Assembly: GCA_903908555.1 (NCBI GenBank)
Contig: CAIVSG010000052.1
Location: 1 to 38,521 of the forward strand
Origin: an uncultured Chlorobiaceae bacterium
Lineage (GTDB): Bacteria; Bacteroidota; Chlorobiia; Chlorobiales; Chlorobiaceae
Reading direction: 5' to 3'
Length of the DNA: 38,521 nt
In this document: piece by piece, positions 5,267 to 29,512 of the stretch
How the letters are laid out: every line of letters starts with the position of its first letter
Position numbering within the stretch: position 1 is the first letter of the stretch
Notes under the pieces: model-generated
The model's database searches: none
What the model saw: only the letters and a program-made list of their open reading frames with translations
What the model was told of the DNA's origin: nothing
Position numbers and translations under genes: made by a program

Positions 5267-5284
5267 TAGAAAGAGGAGCTTCAC

Positions 5285-11067: not shown

Positions 11068-11211
11068 TGTTCTCTTTTGGGAGACTGGTGGACACGGATT
11101 GCTATATTGCTATTGAAGAATTCTGAAACAATAAAGGCGCATCCAAAAAAAGACTTACGACCGTCCAAGAAACCTGCGGGCCAAAGTCATGCCAACGGAG
11201 TGGAGAATGTT

Positions 11212-11589
11212 ATGGAGCTTCAAATTGGAAGATCATATTCAAGGTCGGAAATCAGTAAAATTCTGGGAGGAAGTATAAGAGCATCACTTCCCGTATCGGG
11301 GGGAGCGGTTGTATGTGGTTGCTTCAAAAAAGCGCCGGAATGGAATCCCCACGCTCCCGATGAGGTAACTCTAGGAGTTAAGCCTCGGGTACACGCTGCG
11401 GCCCGTACACTTGCCGAGCAAGGCGGACCTATTCCAATTTTTCTGTTCCAAGAGAACTCCGCCTGGAAATACAAGGGCGACTATCTCTGCACAGACTATT
11501 CAACAGATGAGAAGCTATGTGAACAAAAGATGAAAGAGAACCCCGTTCGGGGGCAAATTGGGGGAGTTCTCAGTTTCGAGAAGGTATAG
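11212..11589 (+). CDS. Small protein, possibly DUF6697-like
   Basis: ATG at 11212: MELQIGRSYSRSEISKILGGSIRASLPVSGGAVVCGCFKKAPEWNPHAPDEVTLG...PIPIFLFQENSAWKYKGDY; pattern recalls DUF6697, not verified. Confidence 0.45.
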   Translation: MELQIGRSYSRSEISKILGGSIRASLPVSGGAVVCGCFKKAPEWNPHAPDEVTLGVKPRVHAAARTLAEQGGPIPIFLFQENSAWKYKGDYLCTDYSTDEKLCEQKMKENPVRGQIGGVLSFEKV

Positions 11590-11677
11590 GACCAGTTAAA
11601 GTGCCCTACTATCGGCAAAACCAGCTACAATATGGCCGTTCATATCGGAGCCAAGTTAAGGTATGGAGGTACAAACC

Positions 11678-12330
11678 ATGAAAAAGCATGCGATACTACT
11701 ACGGCTGAATCCTCAACACTGGCCTAAGTGGGACAGTAAATTAGCGCAAGGGTATGATGTGGATGTTTGGTTCACAACGGGTCGCCGCCGCGCCGATGAT
11801 ATATACACAGGGATACCTGTTGTCGTCTTGGGTACAGACAATCTCGGTGTCGTCGCATGTGGGGAGACATCAAGTTGCGTAGAATTTCGGTCCGATACGG
11901 ATTGGGAAGAATCACCACTGGAATTCCAATCGAGTGGCAAAATAAACTTGAACAGAGTCTGCGTCAAAATCAGACGTGTACGGCTTGCAGCAAAGGGTAT
12001 GACCGAGTTTGCCGCCAACAGTGGCCGGGCGCGGTGGGTGACAAGTCCGATCCTCGGTGAAGCTGATTGGGAGGTATTGCAGGAAGGGAGTGATGCGCGG
12101 CAAGACGATGTCCTGAAGCTGGCGCTTGAGATCAGTATTGCCGATTTGAAGAAAACGCTTGAGCAAGAAACACTTTCTGCCCTTGCCTGGCTGGTCGATG
12201 ACGGCATCCTGGATTTTAAACTGGCCATGCCGCGCACAAGCTTGATCAGGGCGAATTTCATGACAAGTTCGGCATCTTTTCCGATGCAGAGGGCAACTGG
12301 GCAGTTAAAATAATGAGTAATATCAATTTA
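11678..12330 (+). pseudogene. Frameshifted, truncated N-terminal fragment of a PLD-containing helicase with an EVE/PUA-like N-terminus
   Basis: Frame 1 reads ...LSALAWLVDDGILDFKLAMPRT; after ~12238 the continuation is in another frame: KLDQGEFHDKFGIFSDAEGNWAVKIM (PLD HxK-type motif), then it stops with no helicase motifs. Confidence 0.6.
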
Positions 12331-12347: not shown

Positions 12348-13937
12348 GTGGAAAGTGTAACGAGTCTCCGAGAAGCATTAAATGTACTAAAAAAATCATC
12401 ACCCCAGGCCGTTGAGGTCGAATGTCTCGACCGCACGCGCAATGTCCTAAAAGAATATTTGTACATTAGGACAAATATTGAAAAGGATTTCAAAAAGCAT
12501 CTTGAAGCACTTTTAAAAAACCAAGTCATTTTTTTGTGTGGTAGCAGTGGAGATGGCAAATCTGCAATACTGACTAGGTACAGTAGTGAATACGCTCATA
12601 AAGCAATTTTCCATCTTGACGCCACCCATAGTTCCGCTCCTCACCAAGATGCAATTACGACTCTGGACCAATTATTTTCCGAAGCAAAAAAAACAAGTTC
12701 ACCACTTGTTATCGGGATAAATATTGGGATGATGGCTAACTATGCAGAAGGTGGTTCAGAAGAACATGACGCTATCAAACGCTCTATGCGAGCTCATTTA
12801 AATGAAGGGCCCACTCCGATTGATCATATATATCTTGATTTTGAAAATTATCCAAAATTCATATTTGGTGAAACAGGTCCTATTTCAGAATTTGCAGTAG
12901 CCTTGATGAAGCGCATTACAAATAATGAAAACAATCCGTTTCGGGCGTTACTGGAGCAAGATAAACACTCACAAAACGATCCAAGGTTGACTGTAAATTT
13001 TAATTTACTCGCTCTGGCTTCAGTTCAGAAAATCATCGTCGAAATCCTGTTGAAATCGCGTCTCATTAAAGATCAGTTTGTCACTGCCAGGACACTTCTG
13101 GATTTTATGCATCAATTGCTAACTGATGATGGCTATCTTTTTGACAATCTATTTTCCGGTTCTGATAATGAATTATCACAACGAATTAAGTTTTTTGACC
13201 CAAGTACATTAAGGACCAAACGGATTGACCATTTTATTCTTCAGTTTAGTTTGGGACTAGTAGATGTGGATTTTGATAAATTTAAGCAGGACTTAATTGT
13301 GTTTGGCATTTCTGAAAAAGGCAGCCCAGCATCATTCATAAGATTGTTTTATCTCCTTCGTGACCAAGACTTAGGGAACAATTATCATCATTCTTTCTGT
13401 GAAGACTTCTCCGACGAGCTCATAAATTCATACGCAAAGTTTTGGAAATTACATACAAACTTCTCAGATTCTCACGAAGAACGAACAATACTACGAACAG
13501 ATTTTTACAATAATATTTTGCTCCAAGCTATTCATAACTATATGAATCGCAATGCAATGAAGTTGAGGAGACGACAGTACTTTATCGGCGAACACAATGG
13601 GTATCAGTTAGCAGCGCCATTAGATATCAGAGCTGATTTTGAAGCAATTCTAAACGATAGTAACAATAAGATCGGATATTTCAATGCATATTTAAAGGTT
13701 TCAAACAATTCTCTTCCTCCGCTATCAGTCAACATAAATTTGCATGAGCTTATGATAAAGCTCACTCAAGGATATCGACCAAACAAACATGATAAAAATA
13801 CAATTGTGATTCTTGATGAAATTGTAGAAGCAATTGTTGAACTGGCTAACAATAGTCAATCTTTAATAATTGTTGGAGATTCAGTGCACTACGAAGTAAC
13901 TCAAAGTGACAACATAATTGAAGTAAGCGGAGTTTAA
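12348..13937 (+). CDS. dptF: DNA phosphorothioation-dependent restriction protein DptF
   Basis: 529 aa; P-loop IFLCGSSGDGKSAILTRYSSEY followed by FHLDATHSSAPHQDAITTLDQLF, characteristic of DptF; GTG start; first gene of a three-gene operon with the size pattern of dptFGH. Confidence 0.88.
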   Translation: MESVTSLREALNVLKKSSPQAVEVECLDRTRNVLKEYLYIRTNIEKDFKKHLEALLKNQVIFLCGSSGDGKSAILTRYSSEYAHKAIFHLDATHSSAPHQDAITTLDQLFSEAKKTSSPLVIGINIGMMANYAEGGSEEHDAIKRSMRAHLNEGPTPIDHIYLDFENYPKFIFGETGPISEFAVALMKRITNNENNPFRALLEQDKHSQNDPRLTVNFNLLALASVQKIIVEILLKSRLIKDQFVTARTLLDFMHQLLTDDGYLFDNLFSGSDNELSQRIKFFDPSTLRTKRIDHFILQFSLGLVDVDFDKFKQDLIVFGISEKGSPASFIRLFYLLRDQDLGNNYHHSFCEDFSDELINSYAKFWKLHTNFSDSHEERTILRTDFYNNILLQAIHNYMNRNAMKLRRRQYFIGEHNGYQLAAPLDIRADFEAILNDSNNKIGYFNAYLKVSNNSLPPLSVNINLHELMIKLTQGYRPNKHDKNTIVILDEIVEAIVELANNSQSLIIVGDSVHYEVTQSDNIIEVSGV

Positions 13938-15271
13938 TGCAGATGATTCCAATACGCCTTGATTTACCAGCTAAAGTTGAAGATGTGCCACGAATAAATA
14001 CGTTAAACAGTTACTTGCCATTACGTAATAATAAAAATGAATTTAGCTGGGATGTTGTCATTGGTCTTTTTCTTGGCTATGCGTGTAATTTACAAATTCA
14101 AGACTACTCGCAAGAGAGGTTTGTTGAAGACTGCCGTAAAGTGTTCGAAGAGAAGTTAGAAGAAGTTGAGTTCTGGAATGTATTGAAGCGCATGTATTTT
14201 GAAAATGGTGCATTTTTCAATATTGCACCTGAGTGCCAATTGTTTAGAGCTCAAAAAGCTAACGTCAGGGCCGCAGAAGAACGTATAGCGCTGATGTATT
14301 TTTCGCTTCTTAATGGACTAGATCTGTCTGGTTGTTTTGGTGGCAAGATTAATTTCATCGAGCAGCATATTGTTGAGACACTCCAAAAAAAGCTTGTTTC
14401 AGTGACCACTCCGAGCAAAGAGCACCCCTATCTACCATATTTATCAGATCGATTTAGGGAAGATCTGGTTTTCTTGACTAGCAAACCCAAATATATGCTT
14501 GGTGAGCTTAAGAACTTTCTTGCAGTTTACGGCTTTCTATATTGCACTCAGCTGGCACTAAATTTACTTGAGTGGCGCAAGGAGACTCCCAAGCCTAAAC
14601 CACTATATTTTATTTTAGATAATGAGAAGGCCAGTTTGGAGCGCACCGAAATCCAGCGATATGGATGGAGATCTTTCTATGACGCTGCTCAGAACTTGTT
14701 TCCCGTTCTATCAATGTTAGAAAATTTACAACTTGAAGATAAAAACTCAATTAAGCACCCATTGTGGCATATGGCAGAGTCTATAAAAAATCATGAAGAT
14801 GCGGATAGATACAAAGATGCATTTATGAAATTTGCAATATGTTTTAAAGAACAACGAAACCTGAATACCGAGTTGAAGCAGAGCAATGATGTCTTAGACT
14901 GGATTGATAACCTAATTAAGCTCGCAATTAGCCAATTTAGTAAGGATCTCCCAGATTCCTCACGGTATGACGTGAATAGAAAATATGTCAAAGAAGTAGT
15001 AGAGCTAATTTGTGAGGGGTTTGTGCAAAACCGTCGCCGTGGTGGTCTCGTTTTAGTTATAAACCAAGATAGGCTGATACTTCTGACCAATATTGCTATA
15101 GGCTCTGCAGAAAAATTAAGATTTCATGAGCTGATTTTGGCTTTTGAAAATAGAGGAATTTATTTAGATAAACAGACTCAGCAGAAACTTATCGAATTTT
15201 ACGAACGAATTGGTAACGTTGATCGTATGAGTGACAGTGGGGACGCCGTGTATGTCAGAAAAACAATTTGA
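13937..15271 (+). CDS. dptG: DNA phosphorothioation-dependent restriction protein DptG
   Basis: 444 aa, starts within the dptF stop (TAATG overlap); position and size between dptF and dptH. Confidence 0.82.
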   Translation: MQMIPIRLDLPAKVEDVPRINTLNSYLPLRNNKNEFSWDVVIGLFLGYACNLQIQDYSQERFVEDCRKVFEEKLEEVEFWNVLKRMYFENGAFFNIAPECQLFRAQKANVRAAEERIALMYFSLLNGLDLSGCFGGKINFIEQHIVETLQKKLVSVTTPSKEHPYLPYLSDRFREDLVFLTSKPKYMLGELKNFLAVYGFLYCTQLALNLLEWRKETPKPKPLYFILDNEKASLERTEIQRYGWRSFYDAAQNLFPVLSMLENLQLEDKNSIKHPLWHMAESIKNHEDADRYKDAFMKFAICFKEQRNLNTELKQSNDVLDWIDNLIKLAISQFSKDLPDSSRYDVNRKYVKEVVELICEGFVQNRRRGGLVLVINQDRLILLTNIAIGSAEKLRFHELILAFENRGIYLDKQTQQKLIEFYERIGNVDRMSDSGDAVYVRKTI

Positions 15272-18200
15272 AATATTTCTTTCCAGTGCACTAATCAATT
15301 GGGCAAATGAGTCCGCTAGTCCTGGATATAGGTATCAATTTAGAACTCCAAGTGAAGAAAATCGATTAAAGCTGTACGAGGCTATGATTCTTCAAGCGGA
15401 TGATGAAGTGCACTTTAAGGGCAGCGTTCTCAAGGTTATTACCATAGGTGAACTTCGATTGTTGCCGTTGCTGCATTTAGACGATGATAAAGGGCTAAAT
15501 GAGCATTTTATTGCAACTATTAGAGATTATATTGCTCCAGATATTGGCGGTGAATTGGCCGGTTGCGTCGCAATAATTATTCACGATAGTGATCTAGACA
15601 CCATTAGTAATAGCTCTGAGCGTCTCGATAAACAAAATGGCATTTGGAGTCCCGAGCATATAAAGCAAATGCTTAAAGCCTTAATAGATTACAAGGATAC
15701 AGGGAAGGATATCTCTCAGTGTCTGCTTGATTATCAATTCGCAGCAATACAAGAAGATGGCGCAACTATGTTTGGCTTTGCTCCATTGTATAAGGCTCTC
15801 TTGGATGGAGATCTGAAGTTTGATGAACTTGGCTTGCTAAATGATCCTCTAATTGAAAGTTTTAGCGGAAAACCTAAACAAATAAAAAAACGACTGGAAG
15901 AAAACCGTAAGCTATATAAGCAACTTGAATATGATGTTGTACATTTTTCTGGCCAGCTTAAAAACAGATTAGATTTTGGATCAAAGTTTATTGATAAGTA
16001 CTTCCCTGATGGCAACATTGATAAGTGGAAAACAATTGATTTTCAAGTCTTTTGTAATGAACTTACTAAAAACAAAAACCAAACACTTGAATTTGAAAAT
16101 GAAGTTGCTGGTATGAACATTGCGCTAATTGCTAGAAATAAAGATGAGTCAAAATCTGGAAAAAGAGAGCGCAGCATAATTATTGTAGTTGATGAAAATC
16201 AGACTGAGCAAGAATTTGAATTGCATTTCATCGGAAATGATCTTGAGGATAGTCAGTTACGAATTGCCACCAAAAGCTCTTTGATAAACGCTGAGTTCAA
16301 AATATTCAGTAGAGGCACCAAACGCAGAAAAGCGAGATTTAAGGCTCTTTTTGATGGCACACCATCATATTTTACTCTCTATACTGATCGGGATAAGACA
16401 ACGGAAAGATTTAAATTTAATTGCTTAGTAATACGAGAAAATGATTTTTTTGTCGATGCATTCAAGACGTGCTTTGTAATTACGCCAAATAAAAAGGAAA
16501 TTATTCTTCAGACAGACGACAGTAAGCTCTGTATTAATCCGGAATTACCAGGTTGCTCAGTTGTTTGCGATTTGAATCAAGAGATTGATTCTGATTTATA
16601 TGGTGAGGTTGATTTTTCAAAATTAGCCAATGAGTCAGATCTTATAGAATTTAAAGTTAAGCACGGTGAACATAGCTTAAAGTTCGCTGTAGAGGGGCAA
16701 GCAGCAACTGACTCCCTTAGCCTGCCTATTTTGCTTGATACCGATAGATATATTCGCTTGTTTACGGATGAATATTACGGCGAGTTCAATCGTTTAAAAG
16801 ACGTTGTAATAATTGATAATAAGGAGCTATCACCCGTCAGTAAACGGCTTAACCTTCTAAGATGGGAAGCAAGCTATTTAGACGAAGATATAATCGCATT
16901 TTCTTCCTCCGGAGGAGTGAAGTTAAGTGACATAGAGTCTGTAGACCTCAATTTATATAAAGCATACAGCGAGTTATTTAGTTTTCTTAGAAAACTTGGG
17001 ACAATGCCATCTTTGGTCGGTTGGGGGCCTGAATTCCGTAAGTCTGTACAGACAGTGATCGAATCTTACATATCTTACTTGGAGCAAATTCAAAAAAATA
17101 CGGTATTAAACTCCGATCAAAAACTAGTGATGAATATTGGAATGGGGGTGTTTGAAGGTAAAGAATATCTTACTCCATACCATCCATTGATCCTTTCGTA
17201 TTACCTAACCATAGCTGAACAAATTGTTGTGGATTCTGAGACTCGAAGCTTTGAAACGTTACCTAGAATAACATTAGAGCGTTTAACTCCCAGAGGGCTT
17301 TTGCCATATGTCTATGACAGCAAATGTGGATTTTCCTACACGCAGCAAGTTAAGGAAAATGTCTTCTGGCTTGAACTGGTTCCTCAACAGGAAAGTAGCT
17401 ACCAGTTCGTTCGTAAGCTTGTAAAAGAAAAAATAGGTGAATTTAAATTAGCCTTCAAACAGCTATTTTCAGCAAATAGTAGTAAATTGATTATCAATGC
17501 TCTGAACCAGCAAAACAGTGAGGAATTGTTTCTGGGTTTAGTTGATTATTTTAAGGAACAGCTTGAAGATGCCTGCCCAGTTCATGTGAATCTATATGAT
17601 GATACTTTTCATCTAAATGCATTTGACCGATTTGCTGAGGAACCAAGCATATCAGTGATAAAGAGTAAGCTTGAGCTAGACAAAGGTGCTTCAAAAGACA
17701 ACGCAGATTCAATAGTTGATTTACTTCGAACAAAGCTCACCTATAGTAAATTCACTCATACACAAGTAAAAAATAAGCAGACTTATGCACATCTCGCATT
17801 TTTCCGAAACAATCAGAAAATTGACTGTCGGCAGATTGATATCGATTCAGCATTAAGTGGTGTAGCAGCTGATGGTATTTTGGCCAACGAGGCATCAGAA
17901 AATAAAGGTGGAAGCTACTACACAGCCTTTGGACTTAGAAATGTAGATTACAAGGAGCTGCCACACCTTAAACTCGCAAAATTATATGGATCTCTCTATC
18001 GCCCTTCGAGGGAGTCAAATACCCAGTTTACAGGTAGTAATGCTGTAACACTGGCGGTGAGTGACGATTTTAAGGAGTTGTTAGAGCAAGCCTATGATTC
18101 TGCAATCTGGACCACAATTATTGATCCAAAAGTTACTCTAGATTTTTTTACCAGCAACAATGATGTATTGCTCATCCATTATTCAGATCAATATTCGAGT

Positions 18201-20381
18201 TCAGCTAGTTATGACGCAATAACCGTCACGCGTGAAACAAAGCTTTTTAGAAGCGTGCTTCAGCTGGGCCAAGGCGGAATCATAGATGAATTCAATGCCT
18301 TCAACGGCGAGTGGCTTTTAAAAATGCTAACTGCTAGTGCCAATGACCGGAAAGGTACTGAAGGTATAATTGGTGCTTATAAATTCATAACAGGGCTGGT
18401 TAAAGGATCGGAAAACATAACGTGGGTTCCGCTTTCAGTCGCGGAAATGATTCGTGTTGCTGGCAATATCGGTTTGAAGATTAGTGATAGTGAGTTTTCA
18501 AGAAACGTGCATGGATACCGTTCCGGGGCAATTTCAGATGATGTATTGCTTGTAGGATTTAATAATGCACAAGAGCTATTTCTGTTGCCAGTAGAGGTTA
18601 AGACCGGTGCACGACCAGATTACAATAAAGCAGTAAAGCAAACAAAAGAATTGAAGCGATACTTATCATCTTTACTTGGCCCACGTACTTTTGCGGCCAA
18701 ACTTTTCCGCGCATTATTTGTCCGACAAATACTAACTCAGATTGATAAATATCGCTTATACAAGGTTTTTGAGGACGATTACTTTAAACCATTGCTTGAT
18801 GAACGAGAAAAATGGTTACGCGGTAATTATCATCTGGCTGATGTTATCAATTATCCTCAAGGTTTTGTTGTTGCACATGTTGAGAGTGATACTGTCTTTC
18901 AGCCAAGTTATAGTGAACAGGAATCAGTTGTTAAAATTGAACTGCCCTATAGCTTGCTATCTGGCCTAGTCAAGACACCTTTACTCAAGCTGCTTAATGA
19001 TGATGGTATACAAAAGCATTGCCATGTTCCCGATGAATTACTATTGAAAGGGAAAACAAGCTCAGTTTTGGTTGATTTTGTCCCAGATATCACAGGCGAA
19101 AATGAAGATGGAGATCACGAGCTTCAAGCCTCCGTGACGTTACAGGATGTCAAATCTGCTGAAACAGTTGAGGGTGGAATCGACTATTCAAATAATTTAT
19201 TGCCATCTTCAGAACCCTCTAAAATCCTGCCATCTTCTAAATCTGAGAAGCTTAAAGTTCTGTTCGGCAATAAAGTCATGACTCATGAACCCGTTTTTTG
19301 GGAGCCAACCAATACGAGCAGAGTCTTTAACACAAATACTGGTATCATTGGTACTATGGGTACAGGTAAGACCCAATTCACGAAAAGCTTGATTACCCAG
19401 TTGGTACGAAATCAACATGACAATGTAGATGGACAGCCGATTGGTGTTTTGATTTTTGATTATAAAGCAGACTACGTCAAAGACGACTTTGTTAAAGCGA
19501 CTAATGCCAAGGTATATGACCTCTTCAACCTGCCATTCAATCCCTTTGCCCTTTTAGGCAATAAACCAATTTTACCTGTTCATACTGCCAGCCAATTTCG
19601 TGCAACGCTTGGTAAATCGTTTGGTTTGGGTCCAAAGCAAGAAAACCGCATTCATGGTTTAGTGATGGAAGCCTATGAGAAATACGGAATATCTACTACT
19701 GATTCGAGTACCTGGGTAAAACAAGCTCCTACGCTGAAAAACATTTGGGATATATACAATGAACAAGACAAGGTGGAGCAAGATTCGTTATATGCTGCAC
19801 TGTACGAACTGAATACGTTCCAGATATTTGAACCGATATCAAAGAAAACACAATCACTCTACGACACTTTAAGTGGTGTGGTTGTTATCAATCTTTCTGG
19901 TTACGACACCAAAATCCAAAATCTTGTAGTCGCAATCACACTTGATATTTTTTATTCACAAATGCACCAGCAAGGTAGTTCAAAGTTGGACGGCAATTAT
20001 CGTCAAATATCAAAAATGATCTTGGTGGATGAGGCCGATAACTTTATGTCTCAAGAGTTCGAAAGTCTTAAAAAAATCCTCAAAGAGGGCAGAGAGTTTG
20101 GGGTGGGTACGATTCTTTCGACTCAAGAGTTAACGCATTTCAAAACAAGTGAAACCGACTATTCCAGCTATATCCTTACGTGGATAATTCATCGTGTATC
20201 ACAGTTAAAAAACCAAGAAATCAAAGCAATATTCAATGCGAAGGATAAGCAAGCAGAAGAGGATCTTATGCAGCAGATTCGAACGCTAGAAAAGCATTAC
20301 AGCTTGTATATAGATGGCGATAAAAAGATCGCTAAGCTGAAGGACTTAGCGTTTTGGGAGCTGATTAGTAATGAATGCTGA
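15252..20381 (+). CDS. dptH: DNA phosphorothioation-dependent restriction protein DptH (HerA/FtsK-like ATPase)
   Basis: ~1709 aa from ATG 15252 (overlaps the dptG end by 20 nt); Walker A NTGIIGTMGTGKTQFTKSLITQL, Walker B-like MILVDEADNFM near the C-terminus. Confidence 0.88.
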   Translation: MSEKQFEIFLSSALINWANESASPGYRYQFRTPSEENRLKLYEAMILQADDEVHFKGSVLKVITIGELRLLPLLHLDDDKGLNEHFIATIRDYIAPDIGGELAGCVAIIIHDSDLDTISNSSERLDKQNGIWSPEHIKQMLKALIDYKDTGKDISQCLLDYQFAAIQEDGATMFGFAPLYKALLDGDLKFDELGLLNDPLIESFSGKPKQIKKRLEENRKLYKQLEYDVVHFSGQLKNRLDFGSKFIDKYFPDGNIDKWKTIDFQVFCNELTKNKNQTLEFENEVAGMNIALIARNKDESKSGKRERSIIIVVDENQTEQEFELHFIGNDLEDSQLRIATKSSLINAEFKIFSRGTKRRKARFKALFDGTPSYFTLYTDRDKTTERFKFNCLVIRENDFFVDAFKTCFVITPNKKEIILQTDDSKLCINPELPGCSVVCDLNQEIDSDLYGEVDFSKLANESDLIEFKVKHGEHSLKFAVEGQAATDSLSLPILLDTDRYIRLFTDEYYGEFNRLKDVVIIDNKELSPVSKRLNLLRWEASYLDEDIIAFSSSGGVKLSDIESVDLNLYKAYSELFSFLRKLGTMPSLVGWGPEFRKSVQTVIESYISYLEQIQKNTVLNSDQKLVMNIGMGVFEGKEYLTPYHPLILSYYLTIAEQIVVDSETRSFETLPRITLERLTPRGLLPYVYDSKCGFSYTQQVKENVFWLELVPQQESSYQFVRKLVKEKIGEFKLAFKQLFSANSSKLIINALNQQNSEELFLGLVDYFKEQLEDACPVHVNLYDDTFHLNAFDRFAEEPSISVIKSKLELDKGASKDNADSIVDLLRTKLTYSKFTHTQVKNKQTYAHLAFFRNNQKIDCRQIDIDSALSGVAADGILANEASENKGGSYYTAFGLRNVDYKELPHLKLAKLYGSLYRPSRESNTQFTGSNAVTLAVSDDFKELLEQAYDSAIWTTIIDPKVTLDFFTSNNDVLLIHYSDQYSSSASYDAITVTRETKLFRSVLQLGQGGIIDEFNAFNGEWLLKMLTASANDRKGTEGIIGAYKFITGLVKGSENITWVPLSVAEMIRVAGNIGLKISDSEFSRNVHGYRSGAISDDVLLVGFNNAQELFLLPVEVKTGARPDYNKAVKQTKELKRYLSSLLGPRTFAAKLFRALFVRQILTQIDKYRLYKVFEDDYFKPLLDEREKWLRGNYHLADVINYPQGFVVAHVESDTVFQPSYSEQESVVKIELPYSLLSGLVKTPLLKLLNDDGIQKHCHVPDELLLKGKTSSVLVDFVPDITGENEDGDHELQASVTLQDVKSAETVEGGIDYSNNLLPSSEPSKILPSSKSEKLKVLFGNKVMTHEPVFWEPTNTSRVFNTNTGIIGTMGTGKTQFTKSLITQLVRNQHDNVDGQPIGVLIFDYKADYVKDDFVKATNAKVYDLFNLPFNPFALLGNKPILPVHTASQFRATLGKSFGLGPKQENRIHGLVMEAYEKYGISTTDSSTWVKQAPTLKNIWDIYNEQDKVEQDSLYAALYELNTFQIFEPISKKTQSLYDTLSGVVVINLSGYDTKIQNLVVAITLDIFYSQMHQQGSSKLDGNYRQISKMILVDEADNFMSQEFESLKKILKEGREFGVGTILSTQELTHFKTSETDYSSYILTWIIHRVSQLKNQEIKAIFNAKDKQAEEDLMQQIRTLEKHYSLYIDGDKKIAKLKDLAFWELISNEC

Positions 20382-20936
20382 AGAACTCAAAGAACTTCAT
20401 TCAGAACATATCTCGCTGGAAACGTGGCGATTTACGGGCCCCTCATAAGCCGCTACTACTAGTTTATGTTCTGGCTCAATATTTCAGGGGTCATACGCAG
20501 CTCTTCTCATATGAAAATGAGATCGACAAGCAATTAGATGATTTGCTTAAAAGATTTAGTCCCGTACGAAGCACATATAATTTTCATATCCTTTTTGGAG
20601 ATTATTGAATGATAAATTTTGGAAATTAATCAATGCCGAATCGGTAATTCCCCCGAAAATCCAATACGGATCCTCCAAAGTCTGAATTGATACCTTGTTC
20701 GGTAAATAACGGACTTTGTCTTTGTTCATTACATCATCGAGCTTTTGATATGGGGGCCATATCTATAACTGATGATTATCGCCTTCTTTAATCTTCATCA
20801 ATAAATGGTGGTTCAAGAGTTAAAGAATTATTTTATAAATTTGATGGAGTACAAATAACAATTCCAAAAGTTAATTTGTTGATGCCTTCTGCGGATTATA
20901 TGAAGATGGCATCGAGATGAAGTTTTCCGAAAATAG
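20371..20936 (+). pseudogene. Decayed SBD-HNH (sulfur-binding-domain, PT-dependent) restriction endonuclease
   Basis: Frame of 20375: ISRWKRGDLRAPHKPLLLVYVLAQYF...RSTYNFHILFGDY (SBD-like); shifts to LLNDKFWKLINAESVIPPKIQYG (from ~20602), then VNNGLCLCSLHHRAFDMGAISITDDYRLL (HNH-like, from 20702), an in-frame TAA, GVQITIPK..., and finally WHRDEVFRK* in the third frame (20907-20936). Confidence 0.8.
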
Positions 20937-20973
20937 TTTGCTCCATTATGTATATCCACAATAACTATTTGAG

Positions 20974-21225
20974 ATGGAAGAGAACATGTATATTGCCGGG
21001 AAAAAGTTGACCATATTTAGTTGGGCACTATTCAGTTCTCAGACGGATATTCCGGTGGTTAAGGCTATTTCCCTGGCTGATGGGGATGATATTAATGTGT
21101 TGCTCAGTCAGGATGAGATGCTGAATGCTGTTGGGGAATATGCAAATGCTGGAATTCATGATTTAAGATCAAGAATGTTTGATGAACATGGGCAACCGTT
21201 ATGGAACTTGTTGACATTGTTATGA
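20974..21225 (+). CDS. Small uncharacterised ORF
   Basis: 83 aa ORF between the pseudogene and the DUF262 gene; no recognised domain. Confidence 0.35.
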   Translation: MEENMYIAGKKLTIFSWALFSSQTDIPVVKAISLADGDDINVLLSQDEMLNAVGEYANAGIHDLRSRMFDEHGQPLWNLLTLL

Positions 21226-21256
21226 AATATAACGATATTTATATCTAATATGGAGA

Positions 21257-23071
21257 ATGAAAATGATTATTACGCCTACTCACTTAACAATTGGACAGTT
21301 ATTTGATCAACAGTTTATTTTTAGGGTGCCAAAGTATCAAAGATTTTATGCTTGGGATTCGGACGAAATAGATGATTTTTTAGAGGATCTAGAGCAATGC
21401 CAACTAGCAAGGATGACTGGTAATGGTCGTCACCATTTTTTTGGCGGATTGGTGACTGTAAATATACCTTTCGCAGGCTCAGCGAGGAGAAATATTGAAG
21501 TTATTGACGGACAGCAACGTTTGGCATCATTTACAATGCTTGTCGCCCAACTGAGAAAAGCGTTAATTAAATTAGAGTCTGAAGTCGACAAAGCTGCACC
21601 TGACAATCCAGCCAAATTTTTGAAAGATAAATATGACGCACTAAGAGGTAAATACTTGTTTTTTCAGGATACAATGAAGCTGCAAGTCCATGAAATTCAT
21701 AGACTTGAGCTATCTAACCCAGACAAAGCCTTTTTCAAAGTCCTCATTGAAGAAGCTGGCCCTGATGTGACAAGGGATTCACATCAGTTACTTCTTAATG
21801 CATACAATAAAATAGGTAAATATCTCCAAAACCTTGTTAACAAGCAGGCGACTGATTTGGATAAAGCCTTAGCGTTAAGTAGAATTGATGAGGTGTTGCA
21901 ATCAGACTGGACAGTTATCCATATGAGTACAGATACGAAGCAAGAAGCATATATGATGTTCCAGGTATTGAATGATAGAGGCAAGGATTTGACAGAAGGG
22001 GAGCTTCTTCGCGCTCGCACTTTAGAGATGCTTGAAGGAGTGCAATTTTCAGAAAAGCAAGAGGTAGTGGAGGATGCATGGAATCAAATGTTGAAGAAAA
22101 ACAGCCAAGTTGAAGACTCGTTGAGAGCTGTGTACGCCTCGGTTGTGGGGAAGCGACCTGGGCAGGCGACACTATTTGACCAGTTTTTAGATCAGTTCTT
22201 TCCAATGCATAAACAACCCACCCTTGATGACGAAAAGGCAACGAAACTTGTTGAACAAGTTAATAAGCTGAAATCTGACTTTGGGAAGCTTGAGAAAATT
22301 TGTAGTGGGGAGTGGCCATACCCTGTTGCCCCAGGCATAACAGCATGGCATCGTGATAGGTTGAGACTTCTTGTTTTAGAGTTAAAGCATACCAACTGTC
22401 TGCCTTTGTTGTTGGCTGCGTGCAATCTTGAGCAGAAAACCTTCGCTGAAGTTGTTCAAATATTGGAACGGTTTGTCTTTAGATACAAAATTATATGCGG
22501 GGCGCATATCAGCGCTGCACAAAATGTCTATTACAAACATGCTGTAAAAATAAGAAATAATCCGACTAATTATCAAGTCAAAGAATTAAGAGATGATTTA
22601 CAGGCCTTGCTAAATAAAAACACCACTGATAGCTTCTTTAAAAGCAGTATAAAAGAAATGGTTTACTCAGATGAAGTCAGTAACAAACCTCTGAAATATT
22701 TCTTGATGACAATTGAGCATTATTACAGGTGGTATGCAGGAGGAGCAAGTAACGCACCTAAGTGTCTTGATCCTTCAAGAGTGTTTGACTTCGCTAATAC
22801 CACTATAGAGCACGTTTATGCACAAAACACGGCAACGCCGAACGTAGCAATGGACGCCTTGGTGAACAAACTGGGAAACCTTACATTTTTAGGAACAGGA
22901 GATAACGAGGCCGTTGGTAACAAGCCGTTCGTACAGAAAAAGCCCATTTTTGCAGCGTCTGGCGTGAAATTAAACAATAAAATTGCTGAGAATGCGACTT
23001 GGGACTCAGCCACTTTAGAAGCCAGAATGGAAGAGCTATCAATGATGGCTATTAAGATTTTCAAGCCATAA
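21257..23071 (+). CDS. DUF262/DUF1524 protein (GmrSD / SspE-like)
   Basis: 604 aa; DUF262 motif IEVIDGQQRLASFTMLVAQLR and C-terminal DUF1524 HNH-like TIEHVYAQN...LVNKLGNLTFLGTGDNEAVGNKPFVQKK. Confidence 0.85.
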   Translation: MKMIITPTHLTIGQLFDQQFIFRVPKYQRFYAWDSDEIDDFLEDLEQCQLARMTGNGRHHFFGGLVTVNIPFAGSARRNIEVIDGQQRLASFTMLVAQLRKALIKLESEVDKAAPDNPAKFLKDKYDALRGKYLFFQDTMKLQVHEIHRLELSNPDKAFFKVLIEEAGPDVTRDSHQLLLNAYNKIGKYLQNLVNKQATDLDKALALSRIDEVLQSDWTVIHMSTDTKQEAYMMFQVLNDRGKDLTEGELLRARTLEMLEGVQFSEKQEVVEDAWNQMLKKNSQVEDSLRAVYASVVGKRPGQATLFDQFLDQFFPMHKQPTLDDEKATKLVEQVNKLKSDFGKLEKICSGEWPYPVAPGITAWHRDRLRLLVLELKHTNCLPLLLAACNLEQKTFAEVVQILERFVFRYKIICGAHISAAQNVYYKHAVKIRNNPTNYQVKELRDDLQALLNKNTTDSFFKSSIKEMVYSDEVSNKPLKYFLMTIEHYYRWYAGGASNAPKCLDPSRVFDFANTTIEHVYAQNTATPNVAMDALVNKLGNLTFLGTGDNEAVGNKPFVQKKPIFAASGVKLNNKIAENATWDSATLEARMEELSMMAIKIFKP

Positions 23072-23090
23072 ATCAACTTGACTTCCAGTA

Positions 23091-23138
23091 AAAACAAGTT
23101 TAACTTCCAACATACAATGGAAGTTAAACTTGTTTTTT
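23091..23138 (+). promoter_or_regulatory. Perfect 19-bp inverted repeat with T-tract: terminator, attenuator or dndB operator
   Basis: AAAACAAGTTTAACTTCCA (23091-23109), 8-nt loop ACATACAA, TGGAAGTTAAACTTGTTTT (23118-23136), then T-run; 15 bp before the dndB start. Confidence 0.85.
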
Positions 23139-23153
23139 TAGAGGGGTCTTGTT

Positions 23154-24248
23154 ATGTCAATTGGGGAATATATCTTTTCTGCAATAAAAGGCAGGCAGGC
23201 AGGCCGTGAGTTTTATATATCAATGTGCCCCCTCAAAATAGTTCCCCGGCTTTTTTTGTTTCAACCTGAGGAATTACCTCCCGAACTTCGTTCTCAGCGA
23301 GTACTCAACAAGAGCAGAATACCTGAGATGTCGCGGTACATAACCACCAATCGCCAAAATTACATCTTCTCTGCAATTACTGCTTCAATTGACAGCCAAG
23401 TGACGTTTGAAACACTTGTCGTTAATGGGAAAGAGCATCAGGACATTGGAACGCTTCGAATACCTATTGAAGCACGTTTTATTTTAAACGACGGTCAGCA
23501 CCGCAGAGCAGCAATTGAAGAGGCTTTGAAGGAACAGCCTGATCTTGGCGATGAAACCATCTCTGTTGTTTTTTTTATCGATAAAGGCTTAAAGCATTCC
23601 CAACAGATGTTTGCTGACCTCAATAAACACGCTCTCCGTCCATCCCGCTCAACCGGGATCCTGTTCGACCATAGAGACCCATTATCAAGTCTGGCCTGCG
23701 AAGTAGTTGAAAATATACCGGTATTCAGGAACCTGACTGAGATGGAAAAAACTTCCATATCCAATCGTTCCACCAAGCTTTTCACCTTGAGCGGCATTTA
23801 TCAGGGCACGTTAGCGCTGTTGCGCAAGTCAGAAAAAACAAAGGCAATTTCTGATGAAGAGATGAAAGTGGCATTTGATTTCTGGAGCTGTGTTACGGAA
23901 AATATGCGCGATTGGAAGCTTGCGGCAACTAAGGACATCAGCACACACGAATTGCGCCTGGACTATGTCCATGCCCATGCGCTTGCCTTGCATGCTATCG
24001 GAAAACTGGGCGCAGAACTTCTCTCCACGGCTGGACGGGACTATAAAGAAGATCTGAAACGGTTGAATGATATCGATTGGGCCAGAAAGAACAGCGCTTT
24101 GTGGGAAGGGCGGGCAATGCATAATGGTAAAATCAGCAAGTCCCACACCTGTGTCACCTTGACTACTAACTACCTCAAAACCTACTTCAAACTCCCGCTG
24201 TCACCTGAAGAACGCCAGATTGAAGACACATTTCTAAGGAAAGCCTAG
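23154..24248 (+). CDS. dndB: DndB, DNA sulfur modification regulator
   Basis: 364 aa; FSAIKGRQAGREFYISMCPLKIVPRLFLF..EELPPELRSQRVLNKSRIPEMSRYI and LNDGQHRRAAIEEAL typical of DndB; first gene of dndBCDE. Confidence 0.93.
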   Translation: MSIGEYIFSAIKGRQAGREFYISMCPLKIVPRLFLFQPEELPPELRSQRVLNKSRIPEMSRYITTNRQNYIFSAITASIDSQVTFETLVVNGKEHQDIGTLRIPIEARFILNDGQHRRAAIEEALKEQPDLGDETISVVFFIDKGLKHSQQMFADLNKHALRPSRSTGILFDHRDPLSSLACEVVENIPVFRNLTEMEKTSISNRSTKLFTLSGIYQGTLALLRKSEKTKAISDEEMKVAFDFWSCVTENMRDWKLAATKDISTHELRLDYVHAHALALHAIGKLGAELLSTAGRDYKEDLKRLNDIDWARKNSALWEGRAMHNGKISKSHTCVTLTTNYLKTYFKLPLSPEERQIEDTFLRKA

Positions 24249-24255
24249 ATACAAC

Positions 24256-25632
24256 ATGGATAAAATAACAGAGATCAAAGAGCACATTAAAAAGGTGTAT
24301 CTGGCCTACAATCGTCCGCTTGTGGTCGGCTATTCCGGCGGCAAGGACTCGACGGTTGTCATGCAGCTTGTCTGGGATGCCATTGAAGAACTGCCGCGTG
24401 AACAGCTGAAACAGGACGTTCACGTCATCTCCACGGATACCCTGGTGGAAACACCTTACATCATCGATTATGTCGCCACGACTTTGGAGCAGATCAACCA
24501 GACGGCACGTGCCAGCAACCTTCCTATCTATGCCCATCGCCTGACACCGTTGTTTAAAAACAGCTTCTGGGTCAATCTGATTGGCAAGGGCTACCCCGCG
24601 CCAAGCCGCAATTTTCGCTGGTGTACGGAGCGCCTGAAGATCGAACCGGTCAATCGCTTTATCTCGGAGTATGTCGATAAATGGGGTGAGGCAACCGTTG
24701 TTCTTGGTGCCCGCCGGGACGAGAGTTCTTCTCGCGCCCAGGTGTTGAGCAGCAAGGCGCGTGATCACATGGGGCTTTCCAAACATCCGACGCTTCCGGC
24801 TGCCTTTGTCTTTACCCCTATTGAGGAGATGACGACGGACGATGTCTGGTCGTACCTGCTGAGTCATAAATGCCAATGGGGCGGCAATAACCGTGACCTT
24901 GCGGCCATGTATCAAAATGCCAGTGGTGGCGAGTGCCCGATGGTGGTAGATAAATCGACGCCATCTTGCGGCAGCAGCCGCTTTGGTTGCTGGACCTGCA
25001 CATTGGTTCAGAAAGATACCACCATGGAAAACCTGATCGACAACGGCGAAGAATGGATGACGCCTTTATTAGAGTTCCGGGACTTTTTGAGCGAAACCCA
25101 GGATGTCGAAAAGAAGACAATCTATCGCAGCCACAAACGCCGCGACGGTAAAATTTCTTATGTGCGTGATGGGACGCGGATTGCCTATGGCCCTTATAAA
25201 CTGGAGTGGCGTAAGGTGTTTCTTGAGAGGCTTTTGCAGATCCAGAATGATATCCGGAAAACCGGCCCTGATGCCACCGTCAGTCTTATTTCTTTTGAAG
25301 AGCTGGAGTACATCCGTGATTATTGGCGGGAAGAAGAGTGGACAGATTCGGTCCCGGAAATTTACCGGAAGACCATCGGTAATGATCATGCCTGGCTGCA
25401 TGATGACGGCGTCAAATTCTCTCAGGAGGATTTTCAACTGCTCAAACAGTTCTGCGAAGAGGAAGGTGTCAATCCCGGACTACCGACAAAACTGATCGAT
25501 CAGGAGCGCCGGATGCAGGGTATGAGCCGACGCGCGGGGATTTTGCAGAAGATAGATCGTATCTTCAATGAAGATTGGGACACTGAAGAAGAAATCCTCG
25601 ATTGGCTTGGGTCGCAAAATGATATTCAATAA
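24256..25632 (+). CDS. dndC: DndC, PAPS-reductase-like ATP pyrophosphatase
   Basis: 458 aa; PP-loop VVGYSGGKDSTVVMQLVWDAIEELP; conserved cysteines (SSRFGCWTCTLVQKD). Confidence 0.95.
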   Translation: MDKITEIKEHIKKVYLAYNRPLVVGYSGGKDSTVVMQLVWDAIEELPREQLKQDVHVISTDTLVETPYIIDYVATTLEQINQTARASNLPIYAHRLTPLFKNSFWVNLIGKGYPAPSRNFRWCTERLKIEPVNRFISEYVDKWGEATVVLGARRDESSSRAQVLSSKARDHMGLSKHPTLPAAFVFTPIEEMTTDDVWSYLLSHKCQWGGNNRDLAAMYQNASGGECPMVVDKSTPSCGSSRFGCWTCTLVQKDTTMENLIDNGEEWMTPLLEFRDFLSETQDVEKKTIYRSHKRRDGKISYVRDGTRIAYGPYKLEWRKVFLERLLQIQNDIRKTGPDATVSLISFEELEYIRDYWREEEWTDSVPEIYRKTIGNDHAWLHDDGVKFSQEDFQLLKQFCEEEGVNPGLPTKLIDQERRMQGMSRRAGILQKIDRIFNEDWDTEEEILDWLGSQNDIQ

Positions 25633-27628
25633 ACTGACGGTAACAAATCTCGGAAACTTTGCCGGTACGCATGAGTTAAACCTACGTCCTAATGACACGA
25701 AGGCGATTAAACCGATCATCCTTTTTGGCGGCTTGAACGGTGCCGGTAAAACGACCATTTTTGACGCTATCAAGCTCTGCCTGTATGGCCCGGAAATGTT
25801 CGGAACAATCACTGCGGCCAAATATCAGGAACACCTGAAACAGAAGATCCACAGCTCCAAGATAACAGTTGTCCAGCCCAACAGCGCCGGGATCGCCGTT
25901 GAATTTGAATACGCGTACCTCGGGACTGTCTGCACGTATCAAGTGGAACGCATGTGGGAAATTTCCGGTCAGAAGGTGCTTGAAACATTGACCATCGAAA
26001 AGAATGGTCTGCCGCTGGATGATGTTGAAAAGGATGGCTGGCAGGATTTTATAAAGGAGATCATCCCGCTGGGCTTGTCGCAACTGTTCTTTTTTGACGG
26101 TGAAAAGATCCAGAAGATGATGTCTGACGATAGCAACGAAGAACTGAAACGGTCCATCCTGTCCCTGCTGGGTCTTGACCTGGTGGAGCGGCTGCAAGCG
26201 GATTTGAAGATCTATCGGAGCAAGTCTCTGAAAGGTGGTTCCACGGAAAGTTTTGCCAAGGAGATCGCGGCGCTGGAAGGGCAAAAAGAACAGGTTGAGG
26301 CTGATATCCGTAAACTGAATGATGACAAGGCCAGCCCGGAAAATTCAATTCAACAGCTGACTGCCCGGATTGCAGATTACAGAGATAAGATGTCGGCGCA
26401 GGGCGAAGGGTACTACCGTAACAGGGTCAGCCTTGAAGAGAAGAAACGAAGCCTGGAGCATGATATTGATTCGATTAAGGACAAATTACGTGAGTTGGCA
26501 GCCGGTTATCTGCCGGTGGCTATTGCGTCTTCGTATGCACTGAAACTGAAAAAACAGATTGAGGATGAGAACATATACAAAGCAAACACGCTCCTTTCTG
26601 AAAACCTGAAGAAGAAGCATCACGAAATGCTTTCTGTCATTAATTCTTCCGGCTTCTTGAAAATAGATGGGCTTGATTCGAGCACTTTGAGTAAAATTAA
26701 GTCGAAACTCAAAACGGAAATCGAGATGCTTTTTTCGGTGGAAACCAAGCAAGATCGCCAGCCAGAAATCTTCGGTTTTTCACAGAAGCAGGCCTTGGAA
26801 ATACTGGGCTTGATTGATAAGGCCATCAACGTCATCCCGTCAGAAATGGCCGTCTTGACTGATATGTATGAGGTCAAATTCCGGGATCTGCAAGATACGG
26901 TTACCCAGCTTGCCAAAGTGCCGGATGATGAGTTTATCAAACCGATGTATGAAACCCTTGAGGGCCTGAATATCGAGCTTGGTGGACTTACGGAGAAACA
27001 GGCAGCCCTGGACGCACAGTTGGTGGAATTGACAAACACCCGTGGCGAGCTGGAACGGAAGATTGAGCAGATAAACAGCAAAATTGAGTCATCAAAAGAG
27101 CTGGATGAAAAGCTGGAATCTGTTCTGAAGGTAGAGAAGGTGCTGGCAAAATATCATCTGCACCTTGCCAAACAGAAGATCTATAGCTTGCAGGAAGAGT
27201 TCACAAATATTTTTAAGGTCGTCCATCGTAAGGATGACATGATTACCCGCATCAAGATTGATCCGGAAACATTCAATGTCACTCTGTATGACCGCAAAGA
27301 CAAGGTAATTAATAAGAACAGCTTGTCATCTGGCGAGCTGGAAATTTATGCCATGTCCATGTTGTGGGCCTTGGCGAAGACCTCCGGGCAAAAGCTGCCG
27401 TTCATTGTCGATACGCCACTTGCACGACTTGATTCAAAACATCGGGATAATCTGGTCGAGCTATTTTTCCCCCATGCATCACACCAGATGATGATATTTT
27501 CAACCAATACGGAAGTTGACCAGCAGTATTTTGATCGGCTTCGCCCATATGTGGCGCACGCCTACAACCTTGAATATTGCGAAGAGAGTAAATCAACCGT
27601 GGTAAAGGAAGGTTACTTTTGGAATTGA
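25619..27628 (+). CDS. dndD: DndD, SMC-like ATPase
   Basis: ATG at 25619 (14-nt overlap with dndC): MIFNKLTVTNLGNFAGTHELNL; Walker A FGGLNGAGKTTIFDAIKLCLYG; C-terminal SLSSGELEIYAMSMLWAL..LPFIVDTPLARLDSKHR. Confidence 0.95.
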   Translation: MIFNKLTVTNLGNFAGTHELNLRPNDTKAIKPIILFGGLNGAGKTTIFDAIKLCLYGPEMFGTITAAKYQEHLKQKIHSSKITVVQPNSAGIAVEFEYAYLGTVCTYQVERMWEISGQKVLETLTIEKNGLPLDDVEKDGWQDFIKEIIPLGLSQLFFFDGEKIQKMMSDDSNEELKRSILSLLGLDLVERLQADLKIYRSKSLKGGSTESFAKEIAALEGQKEQVEADIRKLNDDKASPENSIQQLTARIADYRDKMSAQGEGYYRNRVSLEEKKRSLEHDIDSIKDKLRELAAGYLPVAIASSYALKLKKQIEDENIYKANTLLSENLKKKHHEMLSVINSSGFLKIDGLDSSTLSKIKSKLKTEIEMLFSVETKQDRQPEIFGFSQKQALEILGLIDKAINVIPSEMAVLTDMYEVKFRDLQDTVTQLAKVPDDEFIKPMYETLEGLNIELGGLTEKQAALDAQLVELTNTRGELERKIEQINSKIESSKELDEKLESVLKVEKVLAKYHLHLAKQKIYSLQEEFTNIFKVVHRKDDMITRIKIDPETFNVTLYDRKDKVINKNSLSSGELEIYAMSMLWALAKTSGQKLPFIVDTPLARLDSKHRDNLVELFFPHASHQMMIFSTNTEVDQQYFDRLRPYVAHAYNLEYCEESKSTVVKEGYFWN

Positions 27629-27999
27629 ACGGACTGGAATTCAAACGCATCAAGTTGTCACAAGAATCGACCAAGAAACTGCAACTGTTCAAGAGCCGCA
27701 CCGGCCTGACGCCGAACATCGCCTGTCGCCTTGCTCTGGGTATTTCCATCGCCGAAAACAACATGCCGTCACTGGAGCTGTTCACTGAGGAGTCGGGGCA
27801 GGAGATCAATCGATATACCTTATTTGGCGAGCATGAACTGGTGTTGACGTCACTGTTCATTCAATGGTGTCAGGAGAAACACATCAAGGCCAAAGAACGA
27901 GAAGATTATTTCCTAGCACATATCAATCGCGGCGTTGAACTGCTGGTGAACCGTGTGCGGGGGCTGGAAAATCTGGCTCAGTTGATAAAGGTGAATTGA
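27619..27999 (+). CDS. dndE: DndE
   Basis: 126 aa, TTG start overlapping the dndD end; FKRIKLSQESTKKLQLFKSRTGLTPNIACRLALGISI typical of DndE. Confidence 0.92.
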   Translation: MELNGLEFKRIKLSQESTKKLQLFKSRTGLTPNIACRLALGISIAENNMPSLELFTEESGQEINRYTLFGEHELVLTSLFIQWCQEKHIKAKEREDYFLAHINRGVELLVNRVRGLENLAQLIKVN

Positions 28000-28007
28000 G
28001 GTGTAAC

Positions 28008-28355
28008 ATGCGGATAGATCCTGAATACAACGACTATTACGTCTTTACTTCCGTTTGTCAAAATGGCAAGCAGAGCAGTAGCGGCGCCTGCCCCGTGGTC
28101 TGGGATAGTCAGAACGCACTTCCGTTGACTCAGAATATACAGGTCTTGACGTGGGCTGACGGGAACTACCACTTGTATGAAAGTTTTTGGCTTGCCGATG
28201 AAGAACCCTCTGTTGTTGAAGAGTCCATCTTTTCTGCGCTTAACGAAGCGGGGGAAACATTTGGCAGGATAAAGCTGAATAACCCTGAGTGCGAGGTTCG
28301 CTGGTGTCTGCTGGAAAAAGAACAGATGAGCATGGTTATGGACGTACCGGATTGA
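28008..28355 (+). CDS. Small uncharacterised protein between dndE and dndA
   Basis: ~115 aa from ATG 28008 (MRIDPEYNDYYVFTSVCQNGKQSSSG...); close spacing to dndE (8 bp) and dndA (8 bp). Confidence 0.65.
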   Translation: MRIDPEYNDYYVFTSVCQNGKQSSSGACPVVWDSQNALPLTQNIQVLTWADGNYHLYESFWLADEEPSVVEESIFSALNEAGETFGRIKLNNPECEVRWCLLEKEQMSMVMDVPD

Positions 28356-28363
28356 ACGGGACA

Positions 28364-29512
28364 ATGGAAATGCCAATATATCTCGATCATAACGCCACAA
28401 CGCCCGTAGACAGAAATGTGCTGGAGAAGATGCTGCCGTACTTCTGCGAGGTCTACGGCAATGCTGCCAGCATCGACCATATCCACGGGAATAAGGCAAA
28501 ACAGGCGGTTGATGAGGCACGGCAGGCTATAGCAAAAGTTCTTGGCTGTCGAAAAGAGAGCGAAATTGTCTTTACCAGCGGTGCTACGGAGTCAATCAAC
28601 CTGGCTTTGATTGGTGCGTTCCGGCGCTTTAAGGACAAGGGCAATCACATCATTTCATCGGCAATCGAACACCCTGCCGTGTTGGATACCCTGAACTACC
28701 TGCAAAGTGAAGGTGCGGAAATTACGCGACTCCCCGTGGATAGAAACGGTGTCGTTGATCTGGAAGTTTTGGAAAAGTCGATCAAGAAGGATACGATCCT
28801 GATTTCGGTAATGTTTGCCAACAACGAAATCGGCACTATTCAGCCGATCAAGGAAATAGGCGCTCTTGCCAAGTCGAAAGGGATCATCTTTCATACCGAT
28901 GCGGCCCAGGCGGTGGGGCATGAAAAGATCAACGTCTATGACTTGAACATTGATCTGCTCTCCTTCAGTGCCCACAAGTTTTATGGCCCAAAAGGGATTG
29001 GTGGGCTCTTTGTCCGTTCTTATTCTCCTTTGATCAAGCTGAGCCCTATTTCCTTCGGTGGCGGTCATGAAAAGGGGATGCGGTCAGGGACACTGAACGT
29101 GCCGGGCATTGTCGGCATGGCTGAAGCACTTTCCTTGTCGATCAAAGAGATGAGTTATGAAAACAATCGGCTGAGAAAGGCTGCAGGGGTGATTTGTCAG
29201 CGACTCCAGCAAACGTTTCCAGATATCAAACTCAACGGGCACCCGCAAAACAGGCTTGCTCATAACCTTAGCCTCACCATTCCAGGCGTCGAGGCAAAGG
29301 CATTGATCCATCGCCTGAAAAATAGGCTCTCTTTCTCCACAGGTTCCGCCTGCTCGACCATCAAGGTTGAACCGTCACATGTGCTCAAGGCGATTGGACT
29401 TGCCGATGATGAAACTTTTCAGACGGTACGGCTGGGACTGGGGAGGACAACACAGGGTGCAGCGGGGATCGCTGATATTCTGATTGATGGAGTTAACCAC
29501 GTGAGGAAATAA
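28364..29512 (+). CDS. dndA: DndA / NifS-type cysteine desulfurase
   Basis: MEMPIYLDHNATTPVD; IIFHTDAAQAVGH; PLP lysine SAHKFYGPKG; catalytic-loop Cys FSTGSACSTIKVEPSHVLKAIGL. Confidence 0.93.
   Translation: MEMPIYLDHNATTPVDRNVLEKMLPYFCEVYGNAASIDHIHGNKAKQAVDEARQAIAKVLGCRKESEIVFTSGATESINLALIGAFRRFKDKGNHIISSAIEHPAVLDTLNYLQSEGAEITRLPVDRNGVVDLEVLEKSIKKDTILISVMFANNEIGTIQPIKEIGALAKSKGIIFHTDAAQAVGHEKINVYDLNIDLLSFSAHKFYGPKGIGGLFVRSYSPLIKLSPISFGGGHEKGMRSGTLNVPGIVGMAEALSLSIKEMSYENNRLRKAAGVICQRLQQTFPDIKLNGHPQNRLAHNLSLTIPGVEAKALIHRLKNRLSFSTGSACSTIKVEPSHVLKAIGLADDETFQTVRLGLGRTTQGAAGIADILIDGVNHVRK

Follow-up and report, generated by a model that had tools for sequence, protein, structure and literature searches.

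Why does the gene of a nuclease that cleaves phosphorothioate (PT)-modified DNA lie broken inside an island whose own genes write that modification? We addressed this question in a stretch of 38,521 nucleotides from an uncultured Chlorobiaceae bacterium (contig CAIVSG010000052.1; hereafter, the window), which carries a degenerate gene with a sulfur-binding domain (SBD) and an HNH domain at positions 20371–20936 on the plus strand, between dndH (also called dptH) and dndI. An enzyme that cuts PT DNA is not expected next to a PT writer of matching specificity, and yet such neighbors occur. Both the general tension and cases of coexistence are known from the literature: genes of the SBD-HNH or SBD-SRA-HNH type have been reported in Dnd loci (PMC7461809, PMC10853773), and the predicted conflict was published in 2020 together with a set of about 65 unresolved coexistences (PMC7461809). 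A sequence-only reading of the window had proposed that an active copy beside dndBCDE would be self-destructive, and that its decay records purging. Our analysis favors another explanation, to which we assign a probability of roughly 70%: the fossil gene would be a recently inactivated fourth cistron of the dndFGH operon, an accessory arm lost as dispensable.

Identity and lesions of the fossil gene

The fossil gene belongs to the EcoWI-type family NF045808 of NCBIfam, whose title is "phosphorothioated DNA-binding restriction endonuclease". In profile searches, the open piece 20375–20605 matched model positions 4–66 (E = 3.4e-21) and the open piece 20648–20788 matched positions 206–236 (E = 1.1e-12), the latter also being recognized by Pfam HNH_2 (E = 3e-8). 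A whole-genome profile search reading through stops gave an SBD half (model positions 4–103, 76.6 bits) and an HNH/C-terminal half (model positions 206–277, 71.1 bits, E = 1.3e-19). These matches are far above chance, as the three real segments score 86, 73, and 24 bits in order, compared with 5.1 bits for the best segment in 1000 shuffles of the fossil-region DNA. With 76.6 and 71.1 bits and internal stops, the pieces fall short of the curated family cut-off of 180 bits in an open frame, and the gene reads as a pseudogene of the family rather than as an active member. The pseudogene is real, its family and the type of island around it are both known, and its nature and its slot after dndH are close to certain.

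In the reading order of intact orthologues, the remnant consists of MNAEELKEL, an SBD containing RAPHKPLLL, SYPFWRLLNDKFWKLINAESV, PRKSNTDPPKSELI, PCSVNNGLCLCSLHHRAFD..., a TAA stop, SSSINGGSRVKELF..., and WHRDEVFRK with its stop codon. The N-terminal peptide (20371–20397) aligns with MSPEELKEK of the intact gene of Neptunomonas qingdaonensis (locus L053) and is out of frame with the SBD body. The first part of the SBD, IQNISRWKRGDLRAPHKPLLL...RSTYN (20399–20581; model positions 4–66), holds the pocket His and Lys in the motif APHKP. Its second part, SYPFWRLLNDKFWKLINAESV (approximately 20582–20646; 23.9 bits, model positions 67–97), is read in a frame unlike that of its neighbors and keeps the pocket Tyr-Pro. 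The base-contact loop region, PRKSNTDPPKSELI (20651–20692), returns to the main frame, and its residues are identical in L053 and in the Alteromonas locus L082. After a deletion junction at 20692/20693 follow the C-terminal half of the HNH domain, PCSVNNGLCLCSLHHRAFDMGAISITDDYRLL (20693–20788), an in-frame TAA stop (20789–20791), the C-terminal region, SSSINGGSRVKELFYKFDGVQITIPKVNLLMPSADYMK (20792–20908, within the 206–277 match), and the extreme C-terminus, WHRDEVFRK and a stop codon (20907–20936), which aligns with the WH..EVF ending of intact members. Frame changes are thus found after MNAEELKEL (around 20397), on either side of SYPFWRLLNDKFWKLINAESV, and lastly around 20905.

The deletion is sharp, with model position 103 followed directly by 206, and other alignments place it between query positions 107 and 210 or 106 and 210. 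It preserves the frame and removed about 102 codons (about 306 bp), which encoded the remainder of the linker between SBD and HNH, the CxxC zinc motif, and the first His of the HNH domain (AAHIKW). Of a complete HNH domain, with CxxC and the H..N..H triad, only NG..LC..HH is left, since model positions 104–205 are gone. Because the zinc ligands and the first catalytic His are deleted, the fossil gene can no longer give rise to a nuclease, nor can it encode a complete SBD-HNH protein for PT-dependent cleavage. The sequence-only reading was accurate on most of these points: the peptides that it quoted (RWKRGDLRAPHKPLLL, NGLCLCSLHHRAFDMGA, and WHRDEVFRK with its stop) stand in the place and order it gave, and both the in-frame stop and the loss between SBD and HNH were recognized correctly. 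Its description of three frames holds for the C-terminus, which ends in a third frame at 20936, but not for the SBD and HNH pieces, as RWKRGDLRAPHKPLLL and NGLCLCSLHHRAFDMGA share the frame of 20375; the short stretch SYPFWRLLNDKFWKLINAESV between them, which it had not quoted, lies in another.

In contrast to the HNH domain, the N-terminal SBD is recognizable over model positions 4–103 across the frame changes. All sulfur-pocket residues as defined in PMC6224610 (His, Lys/Arg, Tyr, and Pro) are kept in the alignment, in APHKP and SYPFW. Identity to the L053 protein is 59% in the fossil columns, compared with 58% for full DndH, and only one of the 24 invariant positions differs. As the pocket is kept and divergence is small, the gene was inactivated recently relative to the age of its lineage.

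The slot after dndH and its occupants in related islands

The fossil gene starts with an ATG at 20371 and overlaps dndH, on the same strand, by 11 bases up to the dndH stop codon (20379–20381). The sequence-only reading had noted an overlap here and suggested a former fourth gene of the dpt operon. Orthologues in the same slot bear this suggestion out. Starts of intact SBD-HNH genes overlap the dndH stop by 4 bases in L053, by 14 in L082, and by a single base in L057 (Parendozoicomonas) and L061 (Endozoicomonas). The arrangement supports the view that the fossil gene was formerly the fourth, translationally overlapping cistron after dndH.

Scanning GTDB genomes with aligned DndH C-termini returned 267 relatives, the best 80 of which were kept with 10 kb flanks. 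Seven islands carry an intact SBD-HNH gene directly after dndH, namely L053, L057, L061, L082, L121 (Vibrio), and L123 and L127 (both Shewanella). Intact dndB, C, D, and E lie within 10 kb in L053, L057, L082, and L121, while in L061, L123, and L127 the contig ends before they would be visible. The Neptunomonas island L053 has exactly the order of the window up to dndI, with dndFGH, an intact SBD-HNH gene, and dndI (matching the solved DndI 9JFL, E = 1.6e-71), followed by convergent dndEDCB. It also holds the closest relative of the fossil gene, its sister in the SBD-HNH tree (support 88/90), and the nearest neighbor of the window DndH; the fossil gene and DndFGH therefore seem to have traveled together. 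Copies linked to dnd genes are strongly clustered in the tree, with 3 label changes compared with 8.7 in shuffles, although a single clade is unproven. In places the histories of SBD-HNH and DndH differ (L064 and L126 share 88% identity in SBD-HNH and 54% in DndH), and exchange thus refills the slot. A special base-contact loop was considered as a marker of dnd-linked copies and rejected, as a similar loop (SNTDP) occurs in L017, in whose genome neither dndC nor DndH was detected.

Damaged copies are present as well: L063 has one stop near its end, L064 has stops and is truncated, L126 is truncated, L108 has one stop and lies upstream of dndF, L094 is cut inside the HNH domain, and L097 is a C-terminal scrap. 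The single stops in L063 or L108 could be sequencing errors. In L126, an open reading frame (ORF) after dndH (around 11120–11700) contains an extended series of Val-Ala-Glu triplets (EVAEVAEVA...) that precedes a helix-hairpin-helix-like end.

Dispensable loss, module exchange, or conflict

We propose that the SBD-HNH gene was acquired as part of the PT-defense island, within an operon of the order dndF-dndG-dndH-[SBD-HNH]-dndI, and that the intact enzyme would have served as an accessory arm. DndFGH and DndI would attack DNA lacking the host PT mark, and the SBD-HNH arm would act on DNA whose PT lies in a context not written by the host. Once selection lapsed, a gene that had become dispensable could gather frame changes together with a stop codon and a deletion. 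We consider such a loss somewhat likelier than the obligatory purge of a lethal neighbor.

Among the alternatives, a change of the modification module is slightly the most probable, although we regard it as rather unlikely. It assumes that the fossil gene and DndFGH arrived together, and that foreign dndBCDE(A) genes writing another PT context later took the place of the original module and made the enzyme harmful. Between dndFGH and dndBCDE/dndA (12348–29512), G+C content and phylogenetic neighbors change sharply, from a G+C fraction of 0.36–0.385 in dndF, G, H, and the fossil gene, with 0.37–0.385 for dndFGH alone, to 0.46–0.51 in dndB–E and dndA (0.48–0.62 at third codon positions). The window DndH has a relative at 58% identity, while its DndD, an outlier lineage and the second lowest among all loci, reaches only 33% (35% to the best plasmid match, which is haloarchaeal). 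Moreover, dndBCDE has the same direction as dndFGH, unlike in most relatives. The modification and restriction modules of the window thus probably have different sources. However, decoupling of Dnd modification and DndFGH modules is general (PMC10853773), and other pairs of equal DndH identity also fall to 26% in DndD.

We judge it unlikely that the gene was purged by self-restriction, with the active enzyme cutting the marks of the neighboring dndBCDE and leaving as survivors only cells in which the gene was broken. The sequence-only reading had named the common presence of intact SBD-HNH genes at the same position in dnd+ strains as the observation that would speak against it, and L053, L057, L082, and L121 carry such genes beside complete dndBCDE; the three islands on early-ending contigs carry intact SBD-HNH genes with dndB–E out of view. 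In L053, L057, and L121, pocket, HNH domain, and dndBCDE are all intact. One pair of intact copies, L123/L127 from Shewanella, is under purifying selection (ratio of nonsynonymous to synonymous substitution rates, dN/dS, 0.10 at dS 0.42), and in the pair L057/L061 the proportions of nonsynonymous and synonymous differences are 0.12 and 0.77, respectively. Whether the gene is intact or broken does not follow from the modification genes. We found no relation to DndC or DndD type, and the intact L057 is 88% identical in DndC and 80% in DndD to L063, which has one stop. In addition, one early stop or frameshift would have sufficed to disarm the enzyme, whereas many lesions fit ordinary decay.

In E. 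coli, SBD-HNH and dptH do not avoid each other. Of 5426 genomes, taken as independent and with intact and damaged genes pooled, 238 contain SBD-HNH, 177 contain dptH, 408 contain either, and 7 contain both, compared with 7.8 expected. Coverage of the gene is below 80% in 52 of the 238 genomes, and a truncated allele comprising only bases 1–292, annotated mostly as a hypothetical protein, recurs in several strains. These partial copies were set aside as a control for damage, as they gave p = 0.08 or 0.15 and are clonal.

Several observations nevertheless weigh against dispensable loss and lean towards conflict. Leaving the window aside, 6 of 13 dnd-linked copies are damaged (L063, L064, L094, L097, L108, and L126), compared with 1 of 11 control copies from genomes that were searched for dndC and had none (Fisher p = 0.08, uncorrected for kinship); this excess is a weak pointer. 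In the clade of L082, L123, and L127 the pocket His is replaced by Asn, and in L082 the pocket Pro is additionally replaced by Gly, while all aligned proteins unlinked to dnd keep both residues. These intact, pocket-altered genes lie at 11130–11999 (L082), 11353–12219 (L123), and 11395–12261 (L127). Some of the "intact" copies may therefore have lost recognition of PT. In homologues that were tested, mutating the pocket Pro eliminated binding or weakened it strongly (PMC6224610). EcoWI cuts PT DNA and fully blocked plasmids with PT in the GpsAAC/GpsTTC context, while GpsGCC plasmids were blocked mildly (PMC7461809), and the conflict is therefore real for some pairs. EcoWI and SBD homologues also block incoming dnd clusters (PMC7461809; PMC6224610). 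Taken together, an absolute incompatibility of SBD-HNH and dndBCDE is rejected and the strong form of purging is refuted. Purging in the window is unproven, as intact copies in the same slot elsewhere mean that the break alone is no proof of a need to purge. The data leave room for a milder conflict confined to some PT contexts.

A broader proposal combines these elements and is, in our view, improbable: dnd-linked SBD-HNH would be a third, context-discriminating arm of dndFGH-dndI islands, its fate (intact, pocket lost, or dead) would be determined by which PT context the resident dndBCDE writes, and the fossil gene would record a change of modification module.

It is very unlikely that an intact gene was misread during metagenome assembly. 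The draft assembly of the host is fragmented, with 286 contigs and 81% completeness, and one frame change falls at a run of C, but a span of only 566 bp contains several frame changes as well as a stop codon and the deletion of about 306 bp, the sharp loss of model positions 104–205 does not resemble a base-call error, and the surrounding dndF, G, H, I, and dndB–E, about 15 kb of flanking dnd genes, are open. A shortened, working SBD-only protein from the 77-codon ORF 20375–20608 is hardly credible, since this ORF, although it starts near the dndH stop and keeps APHKP, ends before the pocket Tyr-Pro and the base-contact loop and so covers about half of the SBD, while the true frame from the overlapping ATG runs out after 25 codons.

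The fossil gene itself is an ordinary pseudogene, and the set of compared islands is of moderate use. Intact, pocket-altered, and decayed genes in the slot after dndH now form a matched set at one operon position. These matched islands are the most useful outcome, as the coexistence of PT cutters and PT writers becomes testable with natural pairs, for example in the Neptunomonas island.

The island, its surroundings, and known systems

All genes of the island lie on the plus strand, in the order dndF, dndG, dndH, the fossil gene, a short TIGR04062-like ORF, dndI, dndB, dndC, dndD, dndE, and dndA. The restriction genes dndF (dptF; 12348–13937, PADLOC DndF E = 1.6e-203), dndG (dptG; 13937–15271, PADLOC DndG E = 2.4e-168), and dndH (15231–20381, PADLOC DndH 2400 bits), the last directly upstream of the fossil gene, are open. 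Right after the fossil gene, an 83-residue ORF (20974–21225) matches TIGR04062 (DNA phosphorothioation-associated protein 4) only in the C-terminal half, at positions 56–131 of 151; with E = 5.9e-8 the match does not reach the curated cut-off, and the ORF may be a second truncated gene. The next gene, of the DUF262-DUF1524/GmrSD type (21257–23071), is open, matches solved DndI 9JFL over positions 5–602 (E = 2.1e-83) and PADLOC Orf5, and is identified on this similarity as a full-length DndI, a predicted PT-sensing nickase. The island therefore has two PT-restrained restriction arms, as DndI and DndFGH are described in PMC11662687 as held back by host PT marks and attacking DNA without them. 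The modification genes dndB, dndC, dndD, and dndE (23154–27999) are all open, and the cysteine desulfurase gene dndA follows at 28289–29512 (PADLOC DndA E = 1.4e-152).

The 3' flank of the window is 86% identical to a congener over 1.8 kb, and the contig therefore belongs to the genus. Near the 3' end of the island, a tyrosine recombinase gene on the minus strand (34414–35361) is a possible island mobility gene. Upstream of dndFGH (1580–9745), an SNF2/PLD helicase of 1228 residues and a 1486-residue protein with a weak sacsin-domain match resemble a further defense module. A 996-residue protein (30832–33822) has weak matches to the IscB HNH region (97–153) and to an FxSxx TPR NTPase (186–446). 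The fossil-region DNA showed no similarity to E. coli genomes and plasmids, and we found no viral contigs carrying the window DndH. A search of the host genome and genus found no second SBD-HNH, the genus matches covering mainly the HNH part (157–283) and coming from other HNH_2 proteins. In a phylum-wide survey, DndH was present in 2 of 399, too rare to gauge co-occurrence.

Among known systems, the EcoWI group (NF045808) shares with the fossil gene an SBD with APHKP and YP, the C-terminal half of HNH_2, the WH..EVF C-terminus, and the order of these parts, but the fossil gene is not open, has its catalytic core deleted, and scores below the curated cut-off. ScoMcrA likewise combines a sulfur-binding domain with HNH, but contains an SRA domain, of which there is no sign in the fossil gene or its orthologues. 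In Salmonella Cerro 87 (IscS-DndBCDE-DndI/dndFGHI; PMC11662687), dndFGH and dndI share one operon with dndBCDE as in the window, but the dndFGHI operon as described in the available part of that report includes no SBD-HNH gene, whereas the window has the fossil gene between dndH and dndI. Bsp48385I (PMC7461809) is an SBD-HNH enzyme reported close to dndA–E and dndFGH; it is intact, has low activity regardless of PT, and is similar to the fossil gene by its proximity to dnd genes. The closest counterpart is the SBD-HNH gene of Neptunomonas qingdaonensis (L053, 11128–11994), which shares the slot between dndH and dndI, the overlapping start, and the base-contact loop PRKSNTDPPKSEL, but is intact and faces a convergent dndBCDE of another lineage.

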